Shown here piece by piece: positions 1 to 9,929 of a stretch of DNA of 10,903 nucleotides (its first letter is position 1; each line of letters opens with the position of its first letter). The notes beneath the pieces were generated by a model. It had not been told where the DNA came from, did no database searches, and was given only the letters and a program-made list of their open reading frames with translations. Source of the stretch: Bradyrhizobium sp. (GTDB lineage Bacteria > Pseudomonadota > Alphaproteobacteria > Rhizobiales > Xanthobacteraceae); the NCBI GenBank assembly GCA_028290165.1, contig JAQGKJ010000708.1:1-10903 (forward strand), written 5' to 3'. The position numbers and the translations under genes were made by a program.

Positions 1-895
1 TTTCAATCATCTCCGCCGGATTGCGGAAATCCAGCCGAAACAGGCCCACCAGCTGCGCCCGCATCGAATCAGTGAGATCCTCACCCTGCCAGATCGCGTC
101 GCCGATACGCGTGGCCTCGGAACTTAATCCGACATACCAACTCCATGGCGCGCCATGCAGTTCCGCCAGGGGCTCGATCGCGACGTCGATCGCAAGCAGA
201 TGCGCGAGCCAGCGCGTGATGACCTCGCCGAGCGCGGCCAGACCGCGCCGGCCGGCGGTCAGATCGAGCGCCATGTCGAAGCGGTCGCTGCGTTCCCAGT
301 AGCTGCCGGCGGTGGTGTCATCGAGCAGGTCGATTTCGGTCGCCGTCGGCAACCCCAATAACGCGAGCAGCGGCGATCGGGGATGTCGGCCGAACGGCTG
401 TTCCGTCTCTTCGTCGACTGCGACGATCGAAGCTTCCTGCATCAGAAGCTTCTGCGGACGGAAAAACATCTCGGCGGCGCGCAGCATGAAAGCATCGTCG
501 CAATCATCCAATGTGTTGCGCAGGATCGCCTGCACCAACTGGCCGATCAGAAGGTGGGGAAATCTGATATTGCGCCTGACGATGTCGAGATAGGCGGCTT
601 CGAGCGTACGGTGTTTCACAAGATGATCGCGCCAGGCGATCATCATCTGCCAATTTTCGCGGGCGTCAGCGTCAGCGATCGCCGCAAGCTGCGAGGCATC
701 GACCGGGTCCCGTGGGTTTGACAAAAATGCCTGGTGCAGCCCTTGCTCTGCGGCGCACGCCCCCGGCGGCGGCATAAGCTCCGGGCGCGCGAGATAGGCT
801 TTCAGGAATTCGTCGGTAACCAGCAAGTTGCGCGTGGCATCGCGATCGAGCAAATGATGTCCACAGGAGAGCCAGAAGTCGCGCGATGCATTCAC
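1..895 (-). CDS. DUF6352-type protein linked to formate dehydrogenase (3' end off the left edge)
   Basis: An open frame of 298 codons runs from a GTG at 895-893 to the window edge with no stop, so the C-terminus is missing. The N-terminus reads V-N-A-S-R-D-F-W-L-S-C-G-H-H-L-L-D-R, followed by V-T-D-E-F-L-K-A-Y-L-A-R-P-E-L. I recognise this as the start of the DUF6352 family, which occurs in alphaproteobacterial formate dehydrogenase clusters. No signal peptide or membrane segment is visible, so it is probably cytoplasmic. Cys11, His13 and His14 form a compact possible metal or cofactor site (inference). The start codon overlaps the stop of the preceding gene as GTGA (895-892), which suggests translational coupling. 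The family has no established function that I know of; a role in maturation of the molybdoenzyme is an inference from context only. Coding is certain; the family name is from memory. Confidence 0.8.
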   Translation of the reverse strand, partial: MNASRDFWLSCGHHLLDRDATRNLLVTDEFLKAYLARPELMPPPGACAAEQGLHQAFLSNPRDPVDASQLAAIADADARENWQMMIAWRDHLVKHRTLEAAYLDIVRRNIRFPHLLIGQLVQAILRNTLDDCDDAFMLRAAEMFFRPQKLLMQEASIVAVDEETEQPFGRHPRSPLLALLGLPTATEIDLLDDTTAGSYWERSDRFDMALDLTAGRRGLAALGEVITRWLAHLLAIDVAIEPLAELHGAPWSWYVGLSSEATRIGDAIWQGEDLTDSMRAQLVGLFRLDFRNPAEMIE

Positions 896-1431
896 CCGCC
901 CGTTCCTTTCTTCAGGCCGGCGAGATCGAGGTGCTCGGATGATTCATCGTCATCGCCAACAACTTCCAGAAATTCGAAAGCACGGGCGTGCCCCGTTCCC
1001 TCGCGTGGACGGAGCGCGCGGAACGTCTCGTGGACCGCTCCGTTCTCGTAACTGCGCGCCACCGCAATAACCATGCCAGCCGGATGAATGCAAAGCGAAG
1101 CCGCAAAGCCGATCTCCTCCTCCGCCGCCAGCCGTGCGGTGGCAAGATCGGGAGCACCGAAATGCGTGACCAGTTGCATCGCGAGCCTATCGACGGCCGT
1201 CCTGCGGTCGGGCTCGCTCGCATCGACAATCTGCGCCAGCGTCGAACGGCCAAGCGACTGCAACCCCAAAAAGCCGGCACGGAATGCCGTGCGCGCCTTG
1301 CCCCGCAAACTCGCAGGGTCGCCATGCGCGAACGGGAAAGCGCCGGGCACAGCCCACTCGCCGGGCTCGGCGGCCTTTTCAAAAATAAACGAATCCGACA
1401 CATCGAGCCGGATGGTGCGCAACAGTTTCAC
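892..1431 (-). CDS. DUF6505-type protein, formate dehydrogenase accessory
   Basis: A 179-residue protein beginning with GTG (read as Met): M-K-L-L-R-T-I-R-L-D-V-S-D-S-F-I-F-E-K-A. I recognise this as a DUF6505-like N-terminus, a small uncharacterised family found near formate dehydrogenase genes in Rhizobiales. The start is set by a strong Shine-Dalgarno GGAGGAG at 1439-1445, seven bases upstream. It has no signal peptide or transmembrane helix and is acidic toward the C-terminus (a D-D-D-E-S-S-E run), so it is probably cytosolic. One cysteine is visible, in the C-I-H-P-A-G segment near residue 115. It is the first gene of a minus-strand unit, divergent from the ferredoxin-like gene, and its TGA overlaps the GTG of the DUF6352-type gene. 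Function is unknown. The family name is from memory and less certain than the gene call. Confidence 0.75.
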   Translation of the reverse strand: MKLLRTIRLDVSDSFIFEKAAEPGEWAVPGAFPFAHGDPASLRGKARTAFRAGFLGLQSLGRSTLAQIVDASEPDRRTAVDRLAMQLVTHFGAPDLATARLAAEEEIGFAASLCIHPAGMVIAVARSYENGAVHETFRALRPREGTGHARAFEFLEVVGDDDESSEHLDLAGLKKGTGG

Positions 1432-1648: not shown

Positions 1649-3685
1649 ATGGCCGATCCCACCAGGCATCTCCTGATCTGTTCATGCGAAAGCACCATGC
1701 CGGTTGACGCCGACGCGGTCCGCCGTGCTTGCCGCGGCGAAACGGGGACGGCGACCCAGCTATGCCGCGCCGAACTCGATCGCTTTCGCGCGATCGCGGC
1801 AAAGGACACGCCACTCACGGTCGGATGCACGCAGGAGGCGGCGTTGTTCTCCGAAGTCGCAGCGGAAGGCGGGCGAACAAGTCCGATTCAATTTGCCAAT
1901 ATTCGGGAGGCCGCCGGATGGTCCAGCGAGGCAGCGCAGGCGGGGCCGAAAATGGCAGCGCTGTTGGCGGCTGCGGCCGAGCCGGCGCCACCGGTACCGT
2001 CGGTCAAGCTGGAAAGCGGCGGCGTCATATTGATCTGCGGCCGCGATGAAGCTGCCGTCGAAGCCGGCAACCTGCTCAAGGACCACCTTGACGTCACCGT
2101 GCTGATCGAACCGCCGGCAGCGATTGTGCCGCCGCGCATCAGCGAGTTTCCGGTGGCGAAGGGCAAAGTCAGAAATGCGAGCGGCCATCTCGGCGCCTTC
2201 GAGCTCACGGTCGACGATTTCGCGCAAGCTGCGCCATCTTCGCGCAGCGCATTGGTCTTCGGGCCATCGCGCGATGGTGCAAGGTCGAACTGCGATATCA
2301 TCCTGGATCTGACCGGCGGCACGGCGTTGTTCCCGTCCGCTGATCTGCGCGACGGCTATCTGCGCGCCGATCCCGGCAATCCGGCCGCGATGCTGCAGGC
2401 GGTTCTGCGTGCGCGCGACCTCACCGGCAGTTTTGAGAAACCACGTTACATCGCCTTCGACGCCGCGCTGTGCGCCCATTCACGTTCGCAGCTCACCGGC
2501 TGCACGCGTTGCCTCGATCTTTGTCCGACGAGCGCGATCATGCCCGCCGGCGATCATGTGGCGATCGATGCAAATGTGTGCGCAGGCTGCGGGCAATGCG
2601 CCGCCGCCTGTCCGACAGGAGCTGCATCCTACGCGCTGCCGCCGGAGGACGCGCTGATGCGCAGGCTGCGCGCGATGCTCCTCGTCTATCGCGAGGCCGG
2701 CGGCGAAGGAGCCATCGTGCTGCTGCTTGATGAACCCCACGGCGCACCGCTGATCGATGCGCTGGCCCGCTTCGGCGACGGGCTGCCGGCGCATGTGCTG
2801 CCGTTTTCGGTCAACGAGATCACGCAGGTCGGTCTGGAGAGCATCGCTGCCGCCTTCGCCTATGGCGCGGCTGGATTGCGGTTCTTGCTGCGGGCGCGGC
2901 CGCGCCACGACCTCTCGGGCCTGATGCGGACGATCGCGCTGGCGGATCCGATCCTGAAAGGACTGGGCTTCGGCGCCGGCCGGATTGCGACCATCGAGAC
3001 CGATGATCCGGACACTCTTATCGAGGCGTTGCGTGCGATCCCGTCGATGCCGTCGGCACCGCGGCCGGCAAGTTTTCGCCCCGTGGGGCGAAAACGCGAC
3101 GTGCTGCGGTTTGCGCTCAGCGAGCTTCATCGTGCGGCGCCCGCGCCTGTCGATATCATCGCGCTTCCCGCTGGCGCACCGTTCGGCGCGGTGGAGATCG
3201 ACGCCGGCGGTTGCACGCTGTGTCTATCCTGCGTGTCGGCGTGTCCGACCGGCGCCTTGCGCGACGATCCGGAACGGCCAATGCTGCGCTTTGTCGAAGA
3301 TGCCTGCGTGCAATGCGGACTGTGCGAGGCGACCTGCCCCGAGCATGTCATTACGTTAAAACCCCAGATCGACTTCCGCGCCGCGAGAGCGCCGGCCCGC
3401 ATCCTCAAGGAAGAAGAACCGTTCTGCTGCATCCGCTGCGGCAAGCCGTTCGGCGTCAGGAGCACGATCGAACGCGTGGTGGCGAAGCTGGAAGGCAAAC
3501 ACTGGATGTATACAGGCTCATCCCGGCGGCTCGACGTCATCAAGATGTGCGACGACTGCCGCGTTGCTTTCGTTGCGGAAGAAGGCTTTGAGCCTTACGG
3601 CGCGCAGAGCCAGACCGTCCGCACGACGGACGATTATCTGCGCGAGCGCGAGGCGCAAAAGAGCGCCGATCGGACCAAGAACTAG
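1649..3685 (+). CDS. HdrA/MvhD-like multi-[4Fe-4S] ferredoxin protein linked to formate dehydrogenase
   Basis: A 678-residue soluble protein. The ATG at 1649 is preferred because family resemblance begins there. An in-frame GTG at 1640 is possible and the frame stays open further upstream. The N-terminal region has C11-x-C13, C39 and C60, followed by an N-I-R-E motif near residue 84; this pattern resembles the N-terminal cluster domain of heterodisulfide reductase HdrA. Residues ~125-260 look like a degraded FAD/Rossmann segment lacking GxGxxG. Two ferredoxin pairs follow: C285/C288/C292 with C311/C314/C317/C321, and C522/C525/C528/C532 with C553/C556/C559/C563. Residues ~355-465 between them resemble MvhD but lack its cysteines. 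The tail has C593-C594-x2-C597 and C634-x2-C637, a likely zinc or extra cluster site. It diverges from the DUF6505/DUF6352-type genes. A role as a cytoplasmic electron-transfer or assembly partner of formate dehydrogenase is inferred. The Fe-S assignment is firm; the HdrA/MvhD relationship is from motif reading. Confidence 0.88.
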   Translation: MADPTRHLLICSCESTMPVDADAVRRACRGETGTATQLCRAELDRFRAIAAKDTPLTVGCTQEAALFSEVAAEGGRTSPIQFANIREAAGWSSEAAQAGPKMAALLAAAAEPAPPVPSVKLESGGVILICGRDEAAVEAGNLLKDHLDVTVLIEPPAAIVPPRISEFPVAKGKVRNASGHLGAFELTVDDFAQAAPSSRSALVFGPSRDGARSNCDIILDLTGGTALFPSADLRDGYLRADPGNPAAMLQAVLRARDLTGSFEKPRYIAFDAALCAHSRSQLTGCTRCLDLCPTSAIMPAGDHVAIDANVCAGCGQCAAACPTGAASYALPPEDALMRRLRAMLLVYREAGGEGAIVLLLDEPHGAPLIDALARFGDGLPAHVLPFSVNEITQVGLESIAAAFAYGAAGLRFLLRARPRHDLSGLMRTIALADPILKGLGFGAGRIATIETDDPDTLIEALRAIPSMPSAPRPASFRPVGRKRDVLRFALSELHRAAPAPVDIIALPAGAPFGAVEIDAGGCTLCLSCVSACPTGALRDDPERPMLRFVEDACVQCGLCEATCPEHVITLKPQIDFRAARAPARILKEEEPFCCIRCGKPFGVRSTIERVVAKLEGKHWMYTGSSRRLDVIKMCDDCRVAFVAEEGFEPYGAQSQTVRTTDDYLREREAQKSADRTKN

Positions 3686-3735: not shown

Positions 3736-4956
3736 TCATCCCGGCACCACCGGGAACTTCTCCTTGTGGAAGGCCGCCAGCGTCTGTGGATCCAGCCTCA
3801 GGTGGGCCTGCACCAGTTCAGGCGGTGTCAGCGCCAGCCACTGGTTCAGCGAGACGTCGGCGTAGTAGTTTCTCTTGAAGACCTCGAGGAAGCGCAGCGG
3901 CGTCGTGCCGGTGTTTTCGATGTAATGCCCCATCGCGAACGGCACATAGCCGACATCGCCGGCCATGAAATCGAAGGTCCGCGCCTGGCCTGACGCCGCG
4001 AACACGCCCATGCGCGCCTGACCCTCGATGTAATACTGCCATTCATTGATGTTGGGATGCCAGTGCAGCTCGCGCATGCCGCCCGGCTCAACCTCCACCA
4101 GCGCCGCCGAGATCGTTTTCGAAGCCGGGAACACGCTGGTATCAGTGATCCGCACCGTGCCGCTCTTGGTCTTGATCGGCTGCTGCGCCAGCATTTTGTG
4201 GCTGAAGGTTGGTGACGCCGCGACTGCCCCGACGGTTCTGTCGGAGGCAAGCGGCCCCGGCACCGGCGCCGGGAAAATATACAGTTTGCTCGGATCGGGA
4301 ACGTTAGCGAAGGATGACCCGGAAACCCCGAAGTTCTTGGACAGCACCTCCTTCGGCGTATGCTTGAACCAGTCGCTCAGCAGGAAGGTATTGTCTTCGT
4401 CGAAGTCGCCATCATCGAACACCAAAAGGAATTCGCAGCCGTCGGGATTAAGACCCTGGATCGAATGCGGAACGCCCGACGGGAAATACCAGAGATCGCC
4501 GACACCGACGTCATCGACGAAGTTGTGTCCCTGAGGGTCGATCGCTGTGATGCGAGCGGTGCCGTACAGCATATAGGCCCATTCGGCCGCCTTGTGCCAA
4601 TGCAGTTCACGAACGCCGCCGGCGTTCAGGCGCATGTTCACGCCGGCGATGTCTTTGGAAATACCGAGTTCTCGCTGCGTGACCTGGCGAGTCCAGCCCC
4701 CGGGTTCGAGCCGCATATGCGCGTCGGCAAATGAGAAACGCAGATTGGGCAGCGTGCCGTGATCGGTGGAGGGTGGCGAAAGCAGATCGGGATTCTGCCG
4801 GTCCCGGGTGAGGTTGCGCGGACCGGGATCGGTGCCGCCCTCTCCGGGGCGGACGGGTTGCGGTTCACCAGTTTCTGCGCCGGCAGTTGCCGCCGCCGCA
4901 AAAAGGCCGCCGGCCGCGGTCGCCGCCAATATCGTACGTCGCGTGACATCATCCAT
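3736..4956 (-). CDS. oxdC: Tat-exported bicupin oxalate decarboxylase
   Basis: A 406-residue bicupin expected to convert oxalate to formate and CO2 using manganese. It begins with a Tat signal (T-R-R-T-I-L-A, hydrophobic stretch, likely cleavage after A-G-A near residue 27), so it acts outside the cytoplasm. The N-terminal cupin has [14 protein letters not shown], giving Mn ligands H119, H121, E125 and H164. The C-terminal cupin has H298, H300, E305 and H344. The lid that separates decarboxylase from oxidase in Bacillus subtilis OxdC (SENST) reads D186-E-D-N-T190 here. It keeps the catalytic glutamate (E187) and the general arginine (R116), which favours decarboxylase. The ATG is supported by AGGGAG at 4965-4970. 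It lies 121 bases downstream of fdoI on the same strand and converges with the ferredoxin-like gene. The formate it makes is the substrate of the neighbouring enzyme. Substrate is inferred from family residues, not shown. Confidence 0.9.
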
Positions 4957-5048
4957 AACAGTCGCTCCCTTCTCGCCGATCCCTCCAGATCCGCGACGAA
5001 AAATGAAAAATATTGTGGTGATGCGTTAGGCAGGTCGCGCGTGTCGCA

Positions 5049-5054
5049 AGTCAA
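5049..5054 (-). promoter_or_regulatory. oxdC: Possible -35 element for the oxalate decarboxylase gene
   Basis: On the minus strand TTGACT lies in the 121-base gap between fdoI and oxdC, about 95 bases before the oxdC start. Only weak -10 candidates (GCCTAA or CCTAAC) follow at 17-18 bases. The gap is wide enough for a separate promoter, but read-through from the formate dehydrogenase operon is equally possible. I see no terminator in the gap. Confidence 0.2.
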
Positions 5055-5077
5055 TGAACTGTCCGGTCAACCCTCCC

Positions 5078-6079
5078 TCACTCTGCGGCTCTCACTGATG
5101 CCTGTCGGTCCTGGTTTGCCAGTTGTTGGGCAAGCCAGAGATCGTGATGTTCTTTCGCCCAGTTGAGATCGACCTCCCCGGTACCCATGGCCTCGAACGC
5201 GCCCTCCATGCCGAGCGTGCCGATATAGATGTGGGCCAGGATCAGGGCGACGAACAGAACGGCTACCACGGCATGAACGACCTGCGCGAGCTGCATCCCG
5301 GCGATGTCGGTTCCGAAAAAGGGAAACAGCAGCAGCAATCCGGACAGGGAGACTGCAATGCCGGCAGCAAGCGAAAGCCAATAGACCAGCTTCTCGCCCA
5401 AGTTAAAGCGTCCGGAGGGGGCGTGCTTGTTCTTGATGAAACCGCCGCCTTGCTTGATCCATTCGAGATCTACCTTCTCGAACAGATTGTCCCGGAAGAA
5501 GATCACGACGATGAGGAGGAGGCCGGCCATGAACGCGAAGCTGGTGAAATCGTGCACGTATTTTGCCGCTTGCGAGACGTCGGCGAACGCGTCCGGGCCG
5601 ATCAGCGGCAACAGCAGGATCTTGCCGAAGGTGATGTTGAGGCCGGTCAGGCCGAGAACGACGAACGAGACCGCCGTCAGCCAATGCGAAAATCTCTCAA
5701 AGGCCTTGAAGCGGAGGATTTTCTGTCCCGAACGCCCCTCGGCGATCCGGATCTTTCCCACAATCACGTAGGCCAACGCTAGTAACGCAAGGGTGCCGAG
5801 TATCACGACCGCGCCGCCCCGATGCAGCAGCACCTCGTGGAAATAGTCCCAGGTTCGTCCGGCGGGCTGGATCAGCACGGCGGCCTTTGAATCGGGAATG
5901 ATGATGCGACCCTCGACGCGGGGAGCCTGCTTCAGCAGCGTCTGTTCGTCGACGACGCTCGCGGTCGGATTAGGGGCGCCATCCGGGTTGAGTTTTTGGG
6001 CGTGCGCGGGAAGTGTCGCGGCCATCGACAGCAGCGCGACGGTGACGATAAGAACGCGAATGCGCACAGGAAGCGTCAT
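5078..6079 (-). CDS. fdoI: Formate dehydrogenase gamma subunit, cytochrome b556
   Basis: A 333-residue membrane protein that takes electrons from the iron-sulfur subunit and reduces quinone. Numbered from the ATG at 6079, it has a cleavable-type signal (residues 1-27, ending near A-H-A), then a ~60-residue exported segment and about five membrane helices (roughly 89-108, 133-152, 178-195, 232-252, 263-286). Four histidines match the haem ligands of E. coli FdnI: H132 in F-S-H-W, H176 in K-Y-V-H-D-F, and H269 and H283, which keep the 14-residue spacing of FdnI H155/H169. It is about 115 residues longer than FdnI (217), because of the N-terminal extension. A TTG at 6088 opens the frame earlier. 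The ATG is preferred because GGAGAGG (6089-6095) ends nine bases before it. It follows fdoH by 58 bases. Confidence 0.92.
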   Translation of the reverse strand: MTLPVRIRVLIVTVALLSMAATLPAHAQKLNPDGAPNPTASVVDEQTLLKQAPRVEGRIIIPDSKAAVLIQPAGRTWDYFHEVLLHRGGAVVILGTLALLALAYVIVGKIRIAEGRSGQKILRFKAFERFSHWLTAVSFVVLGLTGLNITFGKILLLPLIGPDAFADVSQAAKYVHDFTSFAFMAGLLLIVVIFFRDNLFEKVDLEWIKQGGGFIKNKHAPSGRFNLGEKLVYWLSLAAGIAVSLSGLLLLFPFFGTDIAGMQLAQVVHAVVAVLFVALILAHIYIGTLGMEGAFEAMGTGEVDLNWAKEHHDLWLAQQLANQDRQASVRAAE

Positions 6080-6088
6080 GACGATCAA

Positions 6089-6099
6089 CCTCTCCCCCC
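6089..6099 (-). promoter_or_regulatory. fdoI: Ribosome binding site deciding the fdoI start
   Basis: On the minus strand this reads GGGGGGAGAGG. Its end touches the alternative TTG at 6088 but is nine bases from the ATG at 6079, so it supports the ATG. Confidence 0.6.
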
Positions 6100-6137
6100 A
6101 TTTCCACGTGACTTGCCCATGTCAGCCACGGCGCGGC

Positions 6138-6740
6138 TCAAACCTCGACCCCCTCGCGGTAAGCGGTCATCCAGCCCCAGGCGCCGGAGCCATAGCCGCG
6201 CTTCAACACCCGTTCCCGGTAGATCTGGGCAATGATGTCGCCGTCGCCTGCCAGCAACGACTTGGTCGAACACATCTCGGCGCACAGCGGCAGCTTGCCC
6301 TGGCCGAACCGGTCCGAACCGTATTTTGCAAATTCCTCGGCGCTGCCCGGCGCCTCCGGCCCGCCGCCGCCGGCGCAATAGGTGCATTTGTCCATCTTGC
6401 CGCGCGAGCCGAAATTGCCGACCTGCGGATATTGCGGCGCGCCGAACGGACAGGCGTAGAAACAGTAGCCGCAGCCGATGCACAGATCCTTCGAATGCAG
6501 CACGATACCGTCTTCGGTCGGGTAGATGCAGGTCACGGGGCAAACCGCCGCACAGGGCGCATCGGTACAATGCATGCAGGCCATCGATACCGAACGCTCG
6601 CCGGGCTTGCCGTCATTGATGGTGACGACGCGACGCCGGTTGATGCCCCAGGGCACCTCGTTCTCGTTCTTGCAGGCGGTGACGCAGGCGTTGCAGTCAA
6701 TGCAGCGGTCCGCGTCGCAAAGAAATTTCATGCGCGCCAT
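6138..6740 (-). CDS. fdoH: Formate dehydrogenase beta subunit, four [4Fe-4S] clusters (FDH3-type)
   Basis: A 200-residue ferredoxin-type subunit that relays electrons from the molybdenum subunit to the cytochrome. The cysteine groups are those of the DmsB/FdnH family: C13-x2-C16-x2-C19-x3-C23; C55-x2-C58-x4-C63-x3-C67; C87-x2-C90-x2-C93-x3-C97; and C119-x2-C122 with C153 and C157. That is 16 ligands for four clusters. C8 and C71 are extra. It has no export signal, so it would cross the membrane with the Tat-carrying alpha subunit. Unlike E. coli FdnH and FdoH (about 300 residues) it ends at residue 200 and lacks the C-terminal membrane anchor. This matches what is usually annotated as the FDH3 beta subunit. 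It begins 13 bases after fdoG stops, with AAGGGCGGAAG just upstream of the ATG. Confidence 0.93.
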   Translation of the reverse strand: MARMKFLCDADRCIDCNACVTACKNENEVPWGINRRRVVTINDGKPGERSVSMACMHCTDAPCAAVCPVTCIYPTEDGIVLHSKDLCIGCGYCFYACPFGAPQYPQVGNFGSRGKMDKCTYCAGGGGPEAPGSAEEFAKYGSDRFGQGKLPLCAEMCSTKSLLAGDGDIIAQIYRERVLKRGYGSGAWGWMTAYREGVEV

Positions 6741-6753
6741 CGCTTCCGCCCTT

Positions 6754-9708
6754 TCACGCCGCCCTGATCTGACAAAGAGTAGCCTTCGGCTCCTGCATGC
6801 CGGTCGCAGGATCGTAGCCGTAGGTCGTGAGCGTGTTCACGCTCTCGCCGAGCACGATCGGATCGGCGCCTTTCGGATATTTAGAGCGGAGATCGGCGCC
6901 TTCATACCAGCCGGCGAAATGATACGGCATCCAGGCAAGGCCCTTGCCGACCCGCTCGGTCACGAGCGCCTTCATGCGGGTCTGTGAACTGTTCTCCGGG
7001 CCCGTCACCCAGACCCAATCGCCGTCCTTGATGCCGCGCGCGGCCGCATCCGCCGGATTGATTTCGACATACATGTGCTGCTTCAACTCGGCGAGCCATT
7101 TGTTCGAGCGGGTTTCCTCGCCGCCGCCTTCATATTCCACAAGCCTGCCGGAACTCAGGATCAAGGGAAACTGTTTGGCGATGCCGCGATCAACGGCAGC
7201 CTTTTGGACGGAAAAGCCGATATTCGGCATGCGGAACTGCCGCGCATCCGGCAGGGTCGGATAGTCAGCGACGAGGTCCGGACGTGGGGTAAAGATCGGC
7301 TCACGATGGGTGGGAATTGGGTCGGGCAGATTCCAGGCGATCATGCGCGCCTTGGCGTTGCCATAGGGCGAACAGCCATGCTCGATCGCCACGCGTTGGA
7401 TTCCCCCCGAGAGGTCGAGCGACCACGACACCAGATCGGGATTGGCGGAATTGACGCGCTGGATGATTTCCATTTCCTGCGGCGTGAGGTCCTTGTCCCA
7501 GCCGAGTTTCTTGAGCACGCCCAGGGTAAACTCGGGATAGCCGTCCTTGATTTCGGAGCCGGCCGAATAGGAGCCTTCGGCGAGAAGGTTGTCGTGCTCC
7601 TCCTTTTCGACCTCCTGCCCGTTTTCCATCACCTTGCGTTTGACGATGCGTTCGACGCCGAACCGGGCGCGGAACGTGCCGCCGCCCTCCTTCACCGGCA
7701 GACTGGTGTCGTAAAGGATCGGCGAACCCGGATGCCTGAACTCCGGTGTTCCCCAGCACGGCCACGGCAGGCCGTAATAATCGCCGCCGACCTCCGGATC
7801 GTCCTTCGGCGCCCGCAGGGTGACGAGGTCGAACTTGGCCTGGTTCTTCATGTGGGCCTTGAGCCGTTCGGGAGATTGCCCGCAATAGCCGGTCGACCAG
7901 CCGCCGCGATTGATCTCCCGCAGGATATCTTCCGCCGACACCGCGTTGTTCTCTACCTTGATATTCTTGAACATCTTGTCGGCGAAGCCGAACTTGCGCG
8001 CGAACAGGTACATCGTGTCGTAATCGTTCTTCGATTCGAACACCGGATCCACGATCTTCTCGCCCCACTGCAGCGAGCGGTTCGAGGCGGTACGCGAGCC
8101 ATCCATCTCGAAACTGGTACAAGCAGGCAAAAGATAGACGCCGTCCTTGCGCTCCGAGAGCACCGACCACGCGGTCGGATAGGGATCGCAGACCACCAGC
8201 AACTCGAGCTTCTCGATGCCGCGCTTGGCCTCCGGCATTCGGGTGATCGTGTTGACGCCATGCCCCATGATGAACATCGCCTGCACGTTGTCAGGCTGGC
8301 TGACCTGGTCCTTCGGCAGCAACGTGGCATCGAACCAGCGTGTGCTCGGAATGCCCGGGGTTTCCATCAGCGTCTTGCTCGGGAAGCGGGACTTCATCCA
8401 GTCGTAATCGACTTCCCACACCCGGCACCAATGCCGCCAGGCATCTTCGGCAAGGCCGTAATAGAGCGGCAGCGTCGTCACATCGAGGCCGAGATCGGTG
8501 GCGCCCTGCACATTGGTGTGACCGCGGAATATGTTGGCGCCCCCGCCGGGCATTCCGACGTTGCCGGTGGCCAGCAGCAGGATGCAACTGGCACGGACGT
8601 TGGCCGTGCCGGTCGAGAACTGGGTCTGTCCCATCGCCCAGATCAACGTCGCCGGCTTTTGCTTGGCGAAGATTTCGGCGACATGCTTGACTTGCGCTTC
8701 AGGCAGACCGGTGACGCGTTCGACCTCGTGAGGCGTCCACTTCGCCACTTGTTTTCGGATGTCGTCGATGCCGTAGACACGCTGCTGGATGAATTCCTTG
8801 TCCTCCCAGCCGTTTTCGAAAATGTGCCAGAGCATCCCGTAGATGGTGGCGATATGCGTGCCCGGACGGACGCGGACATATTCGGTCGCGTGCGCGGCGG
8901 TGCGTGTCATCCGCGGATCGACCACGATCATGTTGGCCCGGTTCAGTTCCTTGCCTTCAAGAATATGCTGAAGCGAAACCGGATGCGCCTCCGCCGGGTT
9001 GCCGCCCATCAGCAGGATGGTCTTGGCGTTGCGAATGTCATTGTAGCTGTTCGTCATCGCGCCATAGCCCCAGGTATTGGCGACGCCGGTGACGGTAGTG
9101 GAGTGGCAGATCCGCGCCTGGTGATCGGAATTATTGGTCCCCCAGAACGCGGCGAACTTGCGGTTGAGGTAGGCGGCCTCGTTGGTGAACTTGGCGGAGC
9201 CGAGCCAGTAAACCGAATCCGGACCCGACTTGGCGCGAATCTCCAGGAGCTTGTCGCCGATCTCGTCGACGGCCTTGTCCCAGCTGAGCCGCGTCCATTG
9301 GCCGTTTACGAGCTTCACCGGGTAACGCAAGCGGCGCTCGCTCAGTACGTCGTCGCGAACCGCAGCACCCTTGCAGCAATGCGATCCGCGATTGATCGGG
9401 CTGTCGTAGTCCGGCTCCTGGCCGATCCAGACGCCGTTTGCGACCTTGGCGATCACCGAACAGCCGACCGAGCAATGGGTGCAGACGTTTTTGCGAGTTG
9501 CCACGGCCGCGCCGGGGGGCGGCGGCGGGCCGGCTTCCGCCTCGCGCACCGCGCCGAGCGGCAGATTGCCGAGCGCGGCGAGAGCCCCGGCCGCGAGGCC
9601 GGAGCGTTTGAGGAAAGTTCGGCGATCCGGATGACCGCTGGCGTCACTCGCTGGGGCGGAAGCAAATCTTCCCTGACTTCGATGACGTTCCGACTTCCTG
9701 ATCAGCAC
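6754..9708 (-). CDS. fdoG: Formate dehydrogenase alpha subunit, Tat-exported molybdenum or tungsten enzyme, cysteine form
   Basis: The catalytic subunit, oxidising formate to CO2 at a Mo or W bis-pterin site. Numbered from the GTG at 9708 it has 984 residues, close to E. coli FdnG (1015). The Tat signal is D28-R-R-T-F-L-K34 with a hydrophobic stretch up to about residue 60, so it is periplasmic. The [4Fe-4S] cluster is C76-x2-C79-x3-C83 and C111, with conserved K113 in C-C-K-G-A. The active site reads H-Q-A-R-I-C-H: C201 replaces selenocysteine 196 of FdnG and H202 matches H197. It is followed by the family segments G-A-M-T-N and N-P-A-E-A-H-P. An earlier in-frame GTG at 9723 overlaps the upstream stop as GTGA but has no Shine-Dalgarno, while AGGGAG sits six bases before 9708. 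It is the second gene of the operon and precedes fdoH by 13 bases. Confidence 0.95.
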   Translation of the reverse strand: MLIRKSERHRSQGRFASAPASDASGHPDRRTFLKRSGLAAGALAALGNLPLGAVREAEAGPPPPPGAAVATRKNVCTHCSVGCSVIAKVANGVWIGQEPDYDSPINRGSHCCKGAAVRDDVLSERRLRYPVKLVNGQWTRLSWDKAVDEIGDKLLEIRAKSGPDSVYWLGSAKFTNEAAYLNRKFAAFWGTNNSDHQARICHSTTVTGVANTWGYGAMTNSYNDIRNAKTILLMGGNPAEAHPVSLQHILEGKELNRANMIVVDPRMTRTAAHATEYVRVRPGTHIATIYGMLWHIFENGWEDKEFIQQRVYGIDDIRKQVAKWTPHEVERVTGLPEAQVKHVAEIFAKQKPATLIWAMGQTQFSTGTANVRASCILLLATGNVGMPGGGANIFRGHTNVQGATDLGLDVTTLPLYYGLAEDAWRHWCRVWEVDYDWMKSRFPSKTLMETPGIPSTRWFDATLLPKDQVSQPDNVQAMFIMGHGVNTITRMPEAKRGIEKLELLVVCDPYPTAWSVLSERKDGVYLLPACTSFEMDGSRTASNRSLQWGEKIVDPVFESKNDYDTMYLFARKFGFADKMFKNIKVENNAVSAEDILREINRGGWSTGYCGQSPERLKAHMKNQAKFDLVTLRAPKDDPEVGGDYYGLPWPCWGTPEFRHPGSPILYDTSLPVKEGGGTFRARFGVERIVKRKVMENGQEVEKEEHDNLLAEGSYSAGSEIKDGYPEFTLGVLKKLGWDKDLTPQEMEIIQRVNSANPDLVSWSLDLSGGIQRVAIEHGCSPYGNAKARMIAWNLPDPIPTHREPIFTPRPDLVADYPTLPDARQFRMPNIGFSVQKAAVDRGIAKQFPLILSSGRLVEYEGGGEETRSNKWLAELKQHMYVEINPADAAARGIKDGDWVWVTGPENSSQTRMKALVTERVGKGLAWMPYHFAGWYEGADLRSKYPKGADPIVLGESVNTLTTYGYDPATGMQEPKATLCQIRAA

Positions 9709-9714
9709 GGACGT

Positions 9715-9720
9715 CTCCCT
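9715..9720 (-). promoter_or_regulatory. fdoG: Ribosome binding site deciding the fdoG start
   Basis: On the minus strand AGGGAG lies six bases before the GTG at 9708 and immediately downstream of the competing GTG at 9723. This favours the shorter protein by five residues. Confidence 0.6.
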
Positions 9721-9929
9721 CACTGAGCCGGATATTTATTGACGCGATAGAAATCTTCGACCTCCGGGGAGTTCGCCTGGTAGCGGGCCTTGCGCTTATC
9801 TGTGAGGTCAACGGGTTTAGCGGCCGCCGGCTCCGGCACCAAAGTGCTCGCGGCCGCTGCTCCAGTGCCGGCAACCGCAAAGCGAAGCAGGTCGCGCCGG
9901 CGGATAATCGTCTTGAGGCGATCCTTCAT
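9720..9929 (-). CDS. Small Tat-signal protein of formate dehydrogenase operons (formate_TAT family)
   Basis: A 69-residue protein, half of it a Tat signal: R10-R-R-D-L-L-R16, a hydrophobic alanine-rich stretch, and a likely cleavage after A-A-A near residue 37. The mature part is only about 32 residues. It ends K-A-R-Y-x5-E-V-E-D-F-Y-R-V-N-K-Y-P, which I recognise as the signature of the short family named for its place in formate dehydrogenase regions. It is the first gene of the operon, with the ATG at 9929 and GGGAG at 9940-9944 as the Shine-Dalgarno. Its stop overlaps a possible fdoG start. The function is not established. It may be a small subunit or assembly factor of the exported complex (inference). 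It is too small to be an enzyme. Confidence 0.88.
   Translation of the reverse strand: MKDRLKTIIRRRDLLRFAVAGTGAAAASTLVPEPAAAKPVDLTDKRKARYQANSPEVEDFYRVNKYPAQ

Follow-up and report, generated by a model that had tools for sequence, protein, structure and literature searches.

A Tat-signal oxalate decarboxylase gene beside FDH3-type formate dehydrogenase genes in Bradyrhizobium: a putative extracytoplasmic route for oxalate

In a stretch of 10,903 nucleotides from Bradyrhizobium sp., referred to here as the window, we have identified the gene of a bicupin of the oxalate decarboxylase family (OxdC) with a Tat-type N-terminus, situated directly after the genes of a formate dehydrogenase (FDH) of the FDH3 type. 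It is fairly probable that the two constitute an accessory extracytoplasmic oxalate route, in which formate produced by OxdC would be oxidised in the periplasm by FDH3 and would feed quinone. An intact pair of this kind has been found in at least 11 different genomes besides the window.

Gene order and protein families in the window

The genes are transcribed from the minus strand in the order small Tat-like protein, FDH alpha, beta, gamma and OxdC (Table 1), and the best matches of the window genes are from Bradyrhizobium and Tardiphaga. The profile scores and coordinates bear out the named genes, positions, shared strand and 121-base gap between fdoI and oxdC given in a preliminary description of this DNA. 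The Tat signals that it had assigned to both OxdC and FDH alpha are also recognised, by motif only, as a twin-arginine motif and a hydrophobic stretch at the start of each protein. The stop codon of the small Tat-like protein overlaps the start of FDH alpha, and a homologue of this small protein is present in 48 of the 54 FDH3 loci that have been read.

Table 1. Features of the window with their profile matches
Feature	Position	Strand	Profile match or remark
formate_TAT-like small Tat-signal-like protein, 69 aa	9720..9929	-	TIGR02811 26.5 bits, below cut-off 48.45
FDH3-type alpha, Cys form, Tat motif DRRTFLK, GTG start	6754..9723	-	Pfam Molybdopterin, Molydop_binding, Molybdop_Fe4S4
FDH3 beta, 4Fe-4S protein, 200 aa	6138..6740	-	NF038355 FDH3_beta 323.4 bits, cut-off 240
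FDH gamma, cytochrome b561 type, N-terminal signal-like segment	5078..6088	-	TIGR01583 160.8 bits, cut-off 115.85; PF01292
fdoI-oxdC spacer, 121 bases	4957..5077	-	contains block CATCACCACAATA
Tat-signal bicupin OxdC, 406 aa, lid DEDNT	3736..4956	-	TIGR03404 565 bits, cut-off 254.2
Protein bearing multiple 4Fe-4S domains; gene convergent with oxdC	1649..3685	+	Pfam Fer4-type matches
DUF6505 protein	892..1431	-	PF20115 173 bits
DUF6352 protein, extends past the window edge	2..895	-	PF19879 198 bits

The match of the bicupin to TIGR03404 spans residues 39-404, is full length and lies above the curated cut-off, and residues 31-404 align to B. subtilis OxdC (1j58, E 2.7e-155). Mapped through this alignment, the protein keeps the equivalents of R92, R270, all eight Mn ligands, E333, Y340 and the lid glutamate E162. 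The roles of these residues follow in part the accessible text of PMC3585803 and PMC10192776. Over the 128 non-duplicate rows of the OxdC alignment the two Mn sites (HxH, E and H in each cupin), R92 and R270 are invariant except for one gap at H275, the equivalent of E162 is present in every row, and the commonest lids are DEDST (41 rows) and DEDNT (34 rows). Since the lid glutamate, the Mn ligands and the arginines are kept, the window bicupin is expected, as judged from its active-site residues, to be a decarboxylase.

A Tat-like N-terminus is seen in 119 of the 128 OxdC rows and in 12 of the 12 FDH3-linked rows, by a motif rule of our own and not a signal-peptide predictor. Predicted Tat export is therefore usual across this branch of OxdC and is not peculiar to the pairing with FDH.

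The alpha subunit has the twin-arginine motif at residue 33 and a cysteine, not selenocysteine, in the RICH motif starting at residue 204. Its best solved relative is FdhA of 9vap_A (1203 bits over residues 33-988), and it falls below the cut-offs of TIGR01591 and of the FDH-N model TIGR01553 (321 of 814 bits). The beta subunit is above the FDH3_beta cut-off and shows no TM-like segment in a hydropathy scan, and the gamma subunit aligns to 1kqf_C. A Tat-type alpha and a cytochrome b gamma accompanying such a beta subunit are the features of FDH3. Assignment to the FdnGHI/FdoGHI type was considered and rejected on the TIGR01553 score and the cysteine of alpha and on the lack of a TM-like segment in beta. 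The term 'FdnGHI-type' of the preliminary description is thus close in function and wrong in family, the NF038355 score of beta and the failed TIGR01553 cut-off placing the enzyme in FDH3. The FDH3 of Methylobacterium (genes fdh3DABC) is described as periplasmic in the accessible part of PMC12180729.

The 54 FDH3 loci are no random sample, with selected genomes and repeats among them; oxdC is absent from 41 of them. These 41 loci carry, within the stretch fetched, a 4Fe-4S (ferredoxin) gene in 32 cases, a DUF6352 gene in 20 and a DUF6505 gene in 17. As FDH3 stands with its companion genes in the absence of oxdC at so many loci, oxdC looks like the added part of the FDH3 locus. The 4Fe-4S protein, DUF6505 and DUF6352 recur often at FDH3 loci, whichever of the two paralogue groups the FDH3 belongs to and whether oxdC is there or not, and their role is perhaps one of maturation.

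In the 121-base spacer a scan with consensus patterns has revealed neither promoter-like nor terminator-like sites, and such sites show no clear excess over shuffled sequences between positions 3600 and 10400. Comparison of the spacers of 11 linked loci, with the OxdC start taken for L090 misplaced by about one codon, shows that the spacer varies among them and that a block like CATCACNACRATA upstream of oxdC is common to four loci, namely the window, L098, L099 and L100. This block could be a separate promoter or regulator site and is a candidate for both. In L099 the region directly before oxdC (9771-9874) is a tandem repeat of 6.9 copies of a 15-base unit with 98% matches, and the unit holds a Shine-Dalgarno-like GGAG.

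Of 99 loci, 17 have close to oxdC a gene of a histidine kinase family named from one representative, which is almost without exception on the opposite strand (L004, L005, L010-L015, L018, L038, L039, L042, L051, L060, L079, L092 and L093, of which L092 repeats L004), and a family of LuxR-type response regulators is found near oxdC in 26 loci. Both families are candidate sensors of oxalate or acid.

Recurrence of the pairing and other formate partners

Of the OxdC loci in the species genome collection, the best 80 of 190 were read, and five of these (L001, L002, L003, L006 and L022) have FDH3 genes immediately next to oxdC. The genus of L001 is represented by 265 genomes, with an OxdC match in 127 (E<=1e-60) and an FdoG match in 178 (E<=1e-290). 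An intact FDH3-oxdC pair within about 2 kb is encoded in at least eight of the 265 (G001, G004, G049, G050, G074, G228, G212 and G134), a lower bound obtained by comparing the match lists by eye; L001 comes from G001 and L006 from G004, and these two are counted in both surveys. In 11 linked loci the spacers are of 44-173 bases and the genes are on one strand. At E<=1e-110, OxdC has been identified in 5 of 385 genomes of a class draw and 14 of 398 of a phylum draw, making 17 different genomes. The matching OxdC copy was read in 16 of these, leaving out G257, and FDH3 lies within 2 kb of it in two (G001 and G212), one of which is the centre of the draw.

Decayed forms of the pair are also encountered. 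The FDH3 locus of G085 (L154) has a fragmented oxdC between fdoI and the ferredoxin gene, G006 (L031) has an FdoG remnant downstream of oxdC, and the oxdC of G257 is in pieces. G026 retains an oxdC of the main clade described below, and no FDH3 was found in it at E<=1e-150. A more distant OxdC gene is located 15-60 kb from an FDH3 locus in the Bradyrhizobium genomes G031, G041, G051, G060, G077, G171, G196 and G262, among the matches listed. A plasmid search for OxdC gave 78 records, of which 42 are from Pantoea.

The label 'beside FDH3' changes five times on the OxdC tree, both with FastTree (128 rows) and with IQ-TREE (63 rows, a chosen subset of the 128); the 128-row tree leaves out L094, whose oxdC is short and broken, and 10 near-duplicates. 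Four of the changes in the IQ-TREE tree are forced by well-supported branches, and a single origin is seen in 0% of 200 bootstrap trees. A main clade, named after the tree was seen, comprises nine linked rows and one unlinked row, L091 of G026. The AU test rejects one clade for all linked rows (p-AU 7e-6) and thereby rules out a single event for the FDH3 pairing on this tree. It also rejects the joining of L089 (2e-5) and of L090 (0.003) to the main clade. The joining of L022 is not rejected (p-AU 0.138); this row is possibly the sister of the main clade, and the FDH3 origins could therefore be three instead of four. The pairing appears to have arisen at least three times on the OxdC tree. The FdoG tree (52 rows), which excludes spans of 800 residues or less, L002 among them, has a patchy distribution of the linked label with eight changes, six of them forced. 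The arrangement in L089 is oxdC-Tat-GHI, and in the other loci Tat-GHI-oxdC, with oxdC following fdoI.

Another class of exported FDH has been identified beside OxdC in a single locus, that of Rhodomicrobium sp. R_RK_3 (L009). Here a selenocysteine FDH-N/O set and the gene of a Tat-OxdC are transcribed away from each other, 354 bp apart (coordinates 3881-9647 and 9950-11221). The alpha subunit has an in-frame TGA near the Sec position and scores 1397 bits with TIGR01553 when TGA is read as U; it belongs to another FDH family and is non-orthologous to FDH3. The set also includes FDH-beta, gamma and FdhE. In L111 and L112 a related FDH is encoded 7-8.5 kb from a distant OxdC. A survey for conserved adjacency had been proposed in the preliminary description, with a lack of conservation counting against the module; the pairing is found to recur on separate OxdC branches, and once with a non-orthologous exported FDH.

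Formate-handling genes of any sort are situated within about 2 kb of oxdC in 20 of the 80 OxdC loci. Nine of the 80 have the gene of a formate/nitrite channel downstream of oxdC, no more than 122 bp away and in the same orientation (L024, L028, L032, L034, L038, L039, L040, L051 and L079), and an oxidoreductase of the YdeP/FdhF family is encoded within 2 kb in 12, each family being named from one representative. Both FocA and YdeP are seen by Tat-OxdC in L024, L028, L032, L034, L038, L051 and L079, FocA only in L039 and L040, and YdeP in L042, L063, L064, L069, L077, L123 and L145-L148. In a more distant Bradyrhizobium OxdC group (about 50-53%) YdeP is divergent from oxdC at 227-403 bp in five of six loci (L123, L145-L148) and is 7 kb off in the sixth, L122. 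These arrangements hint that YdeP handles formate derived from oxalate. In E. coli YdeP is required for a form of acid resistance, for which no explanation had been proposed when PMC4283999 appeared; its authors raised, in the accessible part, a breakdown of formate linked to oxalate as a possibility. Of 139 OxdC loci read, 100 yielded no gene for FDH, FocA or YdeP; the 139 contain selected genomes as well as repeats and are no random sample, and some of them are short, with contigs ending close to oxdC. The OxdC of L028, labelled Mycobacterium sp. KBS0706, groups with Inquilinus, which may reflect a wrong label or a contaminating contig.

The pairing with FDH3 is uncommon yet recurrent, which suggests that the two enzymes work together.

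Proposed route and alternative explanations

The mechanism put forward in the preliminary description, oxidation in place of formate made outside the membrane, is the one that we favour. The bicupin would most likely fold and load Mn in the cytoplasm and then be exported by the Tat system, as is reported for MncA of Synechocystis. Once in the periplasm it would turn oxalate into formate with release of CO2, consuming a proton. This formate would be oxidised to CO2 by FDH3, with its Tat-exported alpha subunit, its beta subunit and its cytochrome b gamma subunit in the membrane, and two electrons would pass to quinone. Oxalate would in this manner yield electrons and proton-motive force outside the cell membrane, and neither carbon nor NADH.

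The preliminary description had held that oxalate would be used without its uptake or the CoA-dependent route, and this part finds no support in the relatives tested, which also encode that route. Frc and an OxlT-type antiporter are above their cut-offs in 13 of 13 relatives tested, and Oxc has been found in 16 of 16; all 11 linked genomes are included among those tested. In one set Oxc is above the cut-off in eight of eight relatives versus one of 14 control genomes, counting only such matches, as the model matched all 14 controls at E<=0.001. Replacement of the CoA route by the OxdC-FDH module is rejected on this basis. The presence of Frc, Oxc and the antiporter therefore favours OxdC-FDH3 as a second, external route, which would stand beside the cytoplasmic Frc/Oxc/OxlT route and not instead of it. 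A PF01226 formate channel is encoded in seven of 13 relatives and only five of the 11 linked genomes, those devoid of it including MAGs that are possibly incomplete. The antiporter itself could move formate.

The main rival to a respiratory route is that OxdC relieves acid or oxalate stress by consuming a proton and removing oxalate at the surface, FDH merely clearing the leftover formate with incidental gain of energy. We consider this somewhat unlikely, though it is compatible with the respiratory reading and both can be true. B. subtilis OxdC is termed a low-pH stress enzyme in the accessible text of PMC8254039, some other OxdC loci have a formate channel with a protein similar to YdeP, an acid-resistance protein of E. 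coli (PMC4283999, accessible part), and the histidine kinases near oxdC in 17 of 99 loci would also fit. The recurring partner is, however, an energy-conserving membrane FDH of the quinone type, which would be needless for mere clearance of formate. A quite different possibility, that the bicupin is an oxalate oxidase generating two CO2 and H2O2 and no formate, appears very improbable. The window lid is a hybrid: it has D161 and N164 in common with the lid DASN of the fungal bicupin oxidase and differs from it at E162. As given in the accessible text of PMC3585803, the lid is DASN in oxalate oxidase and SENS in B. subtilis OxdC, and it is the loss of the lid glutamate (E162Q, DSS, DSSN and DASN mutants) that shifts the enzyme towards oxidase. 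The glutamate is kept in all 128 rows, and the repeated pairing with formate genes also argues against an oxidase. Assignment to the oxidase type of CsOxOx was rejected as the glutamate is present despite the shared D and N.

It is also to be considered that oxdC has merely landed, with a promoter of its own, by a stand-alone FDH3 operon, the two having no joint action. The occurrence of FDH3 with its companion genes and no oxdC in 41 of 54 loci, the spacer block common to the window, L098, L099 and L100, the linkage lost or broken in some relatives and the pair in only two of 16 wider-draw genomes are in keeping with such chance neighbours. Against this stand at least three separate FDH3 pairings in the genus (main clade, G212 and G134) and one pairing with a different FDH class, and also the presence of formate-handling genes some 2 kb or less from oxdC in 20 of 80 OxdC loci. 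A rough chance model, resting on assumed copy numbers and an assumed limit of 2.5 kb, expects 0.08 neighbour pairs in the 265 genomes, with P(>=3) of about 1e-4. Chance neighbourhood is regarded as improbable.

Returning to the extracytoplasmic oxalate route, we tentatively propose a wider scheme, which may well not hold in full, where exported OxdC is one half of a modular system and a formate disposer has been recruited repeatedly, be it FDH3 on the periplasmic side, an FDH-N/O with selenocysteine, or a YdeP/FdhF-like oxidoreductase of the cytoplasm together with a formate channel. Together with a respiratory FDH it would represent an undescribed cell-surface oxalate respiration, quinone being fed without entry of oxalate; with a channel, YdeP would handle the formate derived from oxalate.

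Comparison with known systems

Plants and fungi commonly produce oxalate, and schemes of its use by bacteria usually show uptake and then the CoA route. If it exists, an external route would provide electrons from oxalate without transporting it, possibly in acid soil. From the recurrent neighbours, formate also emerges as a testable candidate substrate of the YdeP-like oxidoreductases. A literature search that reached few subscription papers found no description of an OxdC-FDH pairing.

The MncA of Synechocystis PCC 6803, which we take to be Sll1358 and PDB 2vqa, resembles the window OxdC in belonging to the Mn cupin family and in its Tat-type export signal, the latter matched by the twin-arginine motif of the window protein. 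It is a moderate relative, scoring 274 bits (2vqa) versus 521 for B. subtilis OxdC. The accessible part of PMC11742986 refers to MncA as an oxalate decarboxylase that reaches the periplasm through Tat, and mentions no FDH partner for it.

B. subtilis OxdC (YvrK) shares with the window OxdC the family, the Mn ligands, the arginines and the lid glutamate. It differs in its lid, SENST versus DEDNT, and in being called cytosolic (PMC11742986, accessible part), whereas the window protein has a Tat motif. Its route, 'Type V', converts oxalate to formate in one step and possibly relies on the OxlT antiporter according to the accessible text of PMC10192776, a reliance that an exported enzyme would not need.

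The Frc/Oxc/OxlT system likewise leads from oxalate to formate and CO2; in contrast to the route proposed here it is cytoplasmic, requires CoA and uptake, and is encoded elsewhere in the relatives tested. The FDH3 of Methylobacterium extorquens, likened here by its description, is a four-gene periplasmic set in the accessible part of PMC12180729, and the window beta subunit is of the FDH3_beta family; that set is treated there in the context of methanol and formaldehyde metabolism, with no link to oxalate decarboxylase mentioned. In M. extorquens AM1 a predicted route of periplasmic XoxF and periplasmic FDH yields ATP and no NAD(P)H (PMC3227643, accessible part). This route starts from methanol or formaldehyde and that of the window would start from oxalate, and in both a periplasmic substrate would be converted to CO2 outside the cytoplasm.
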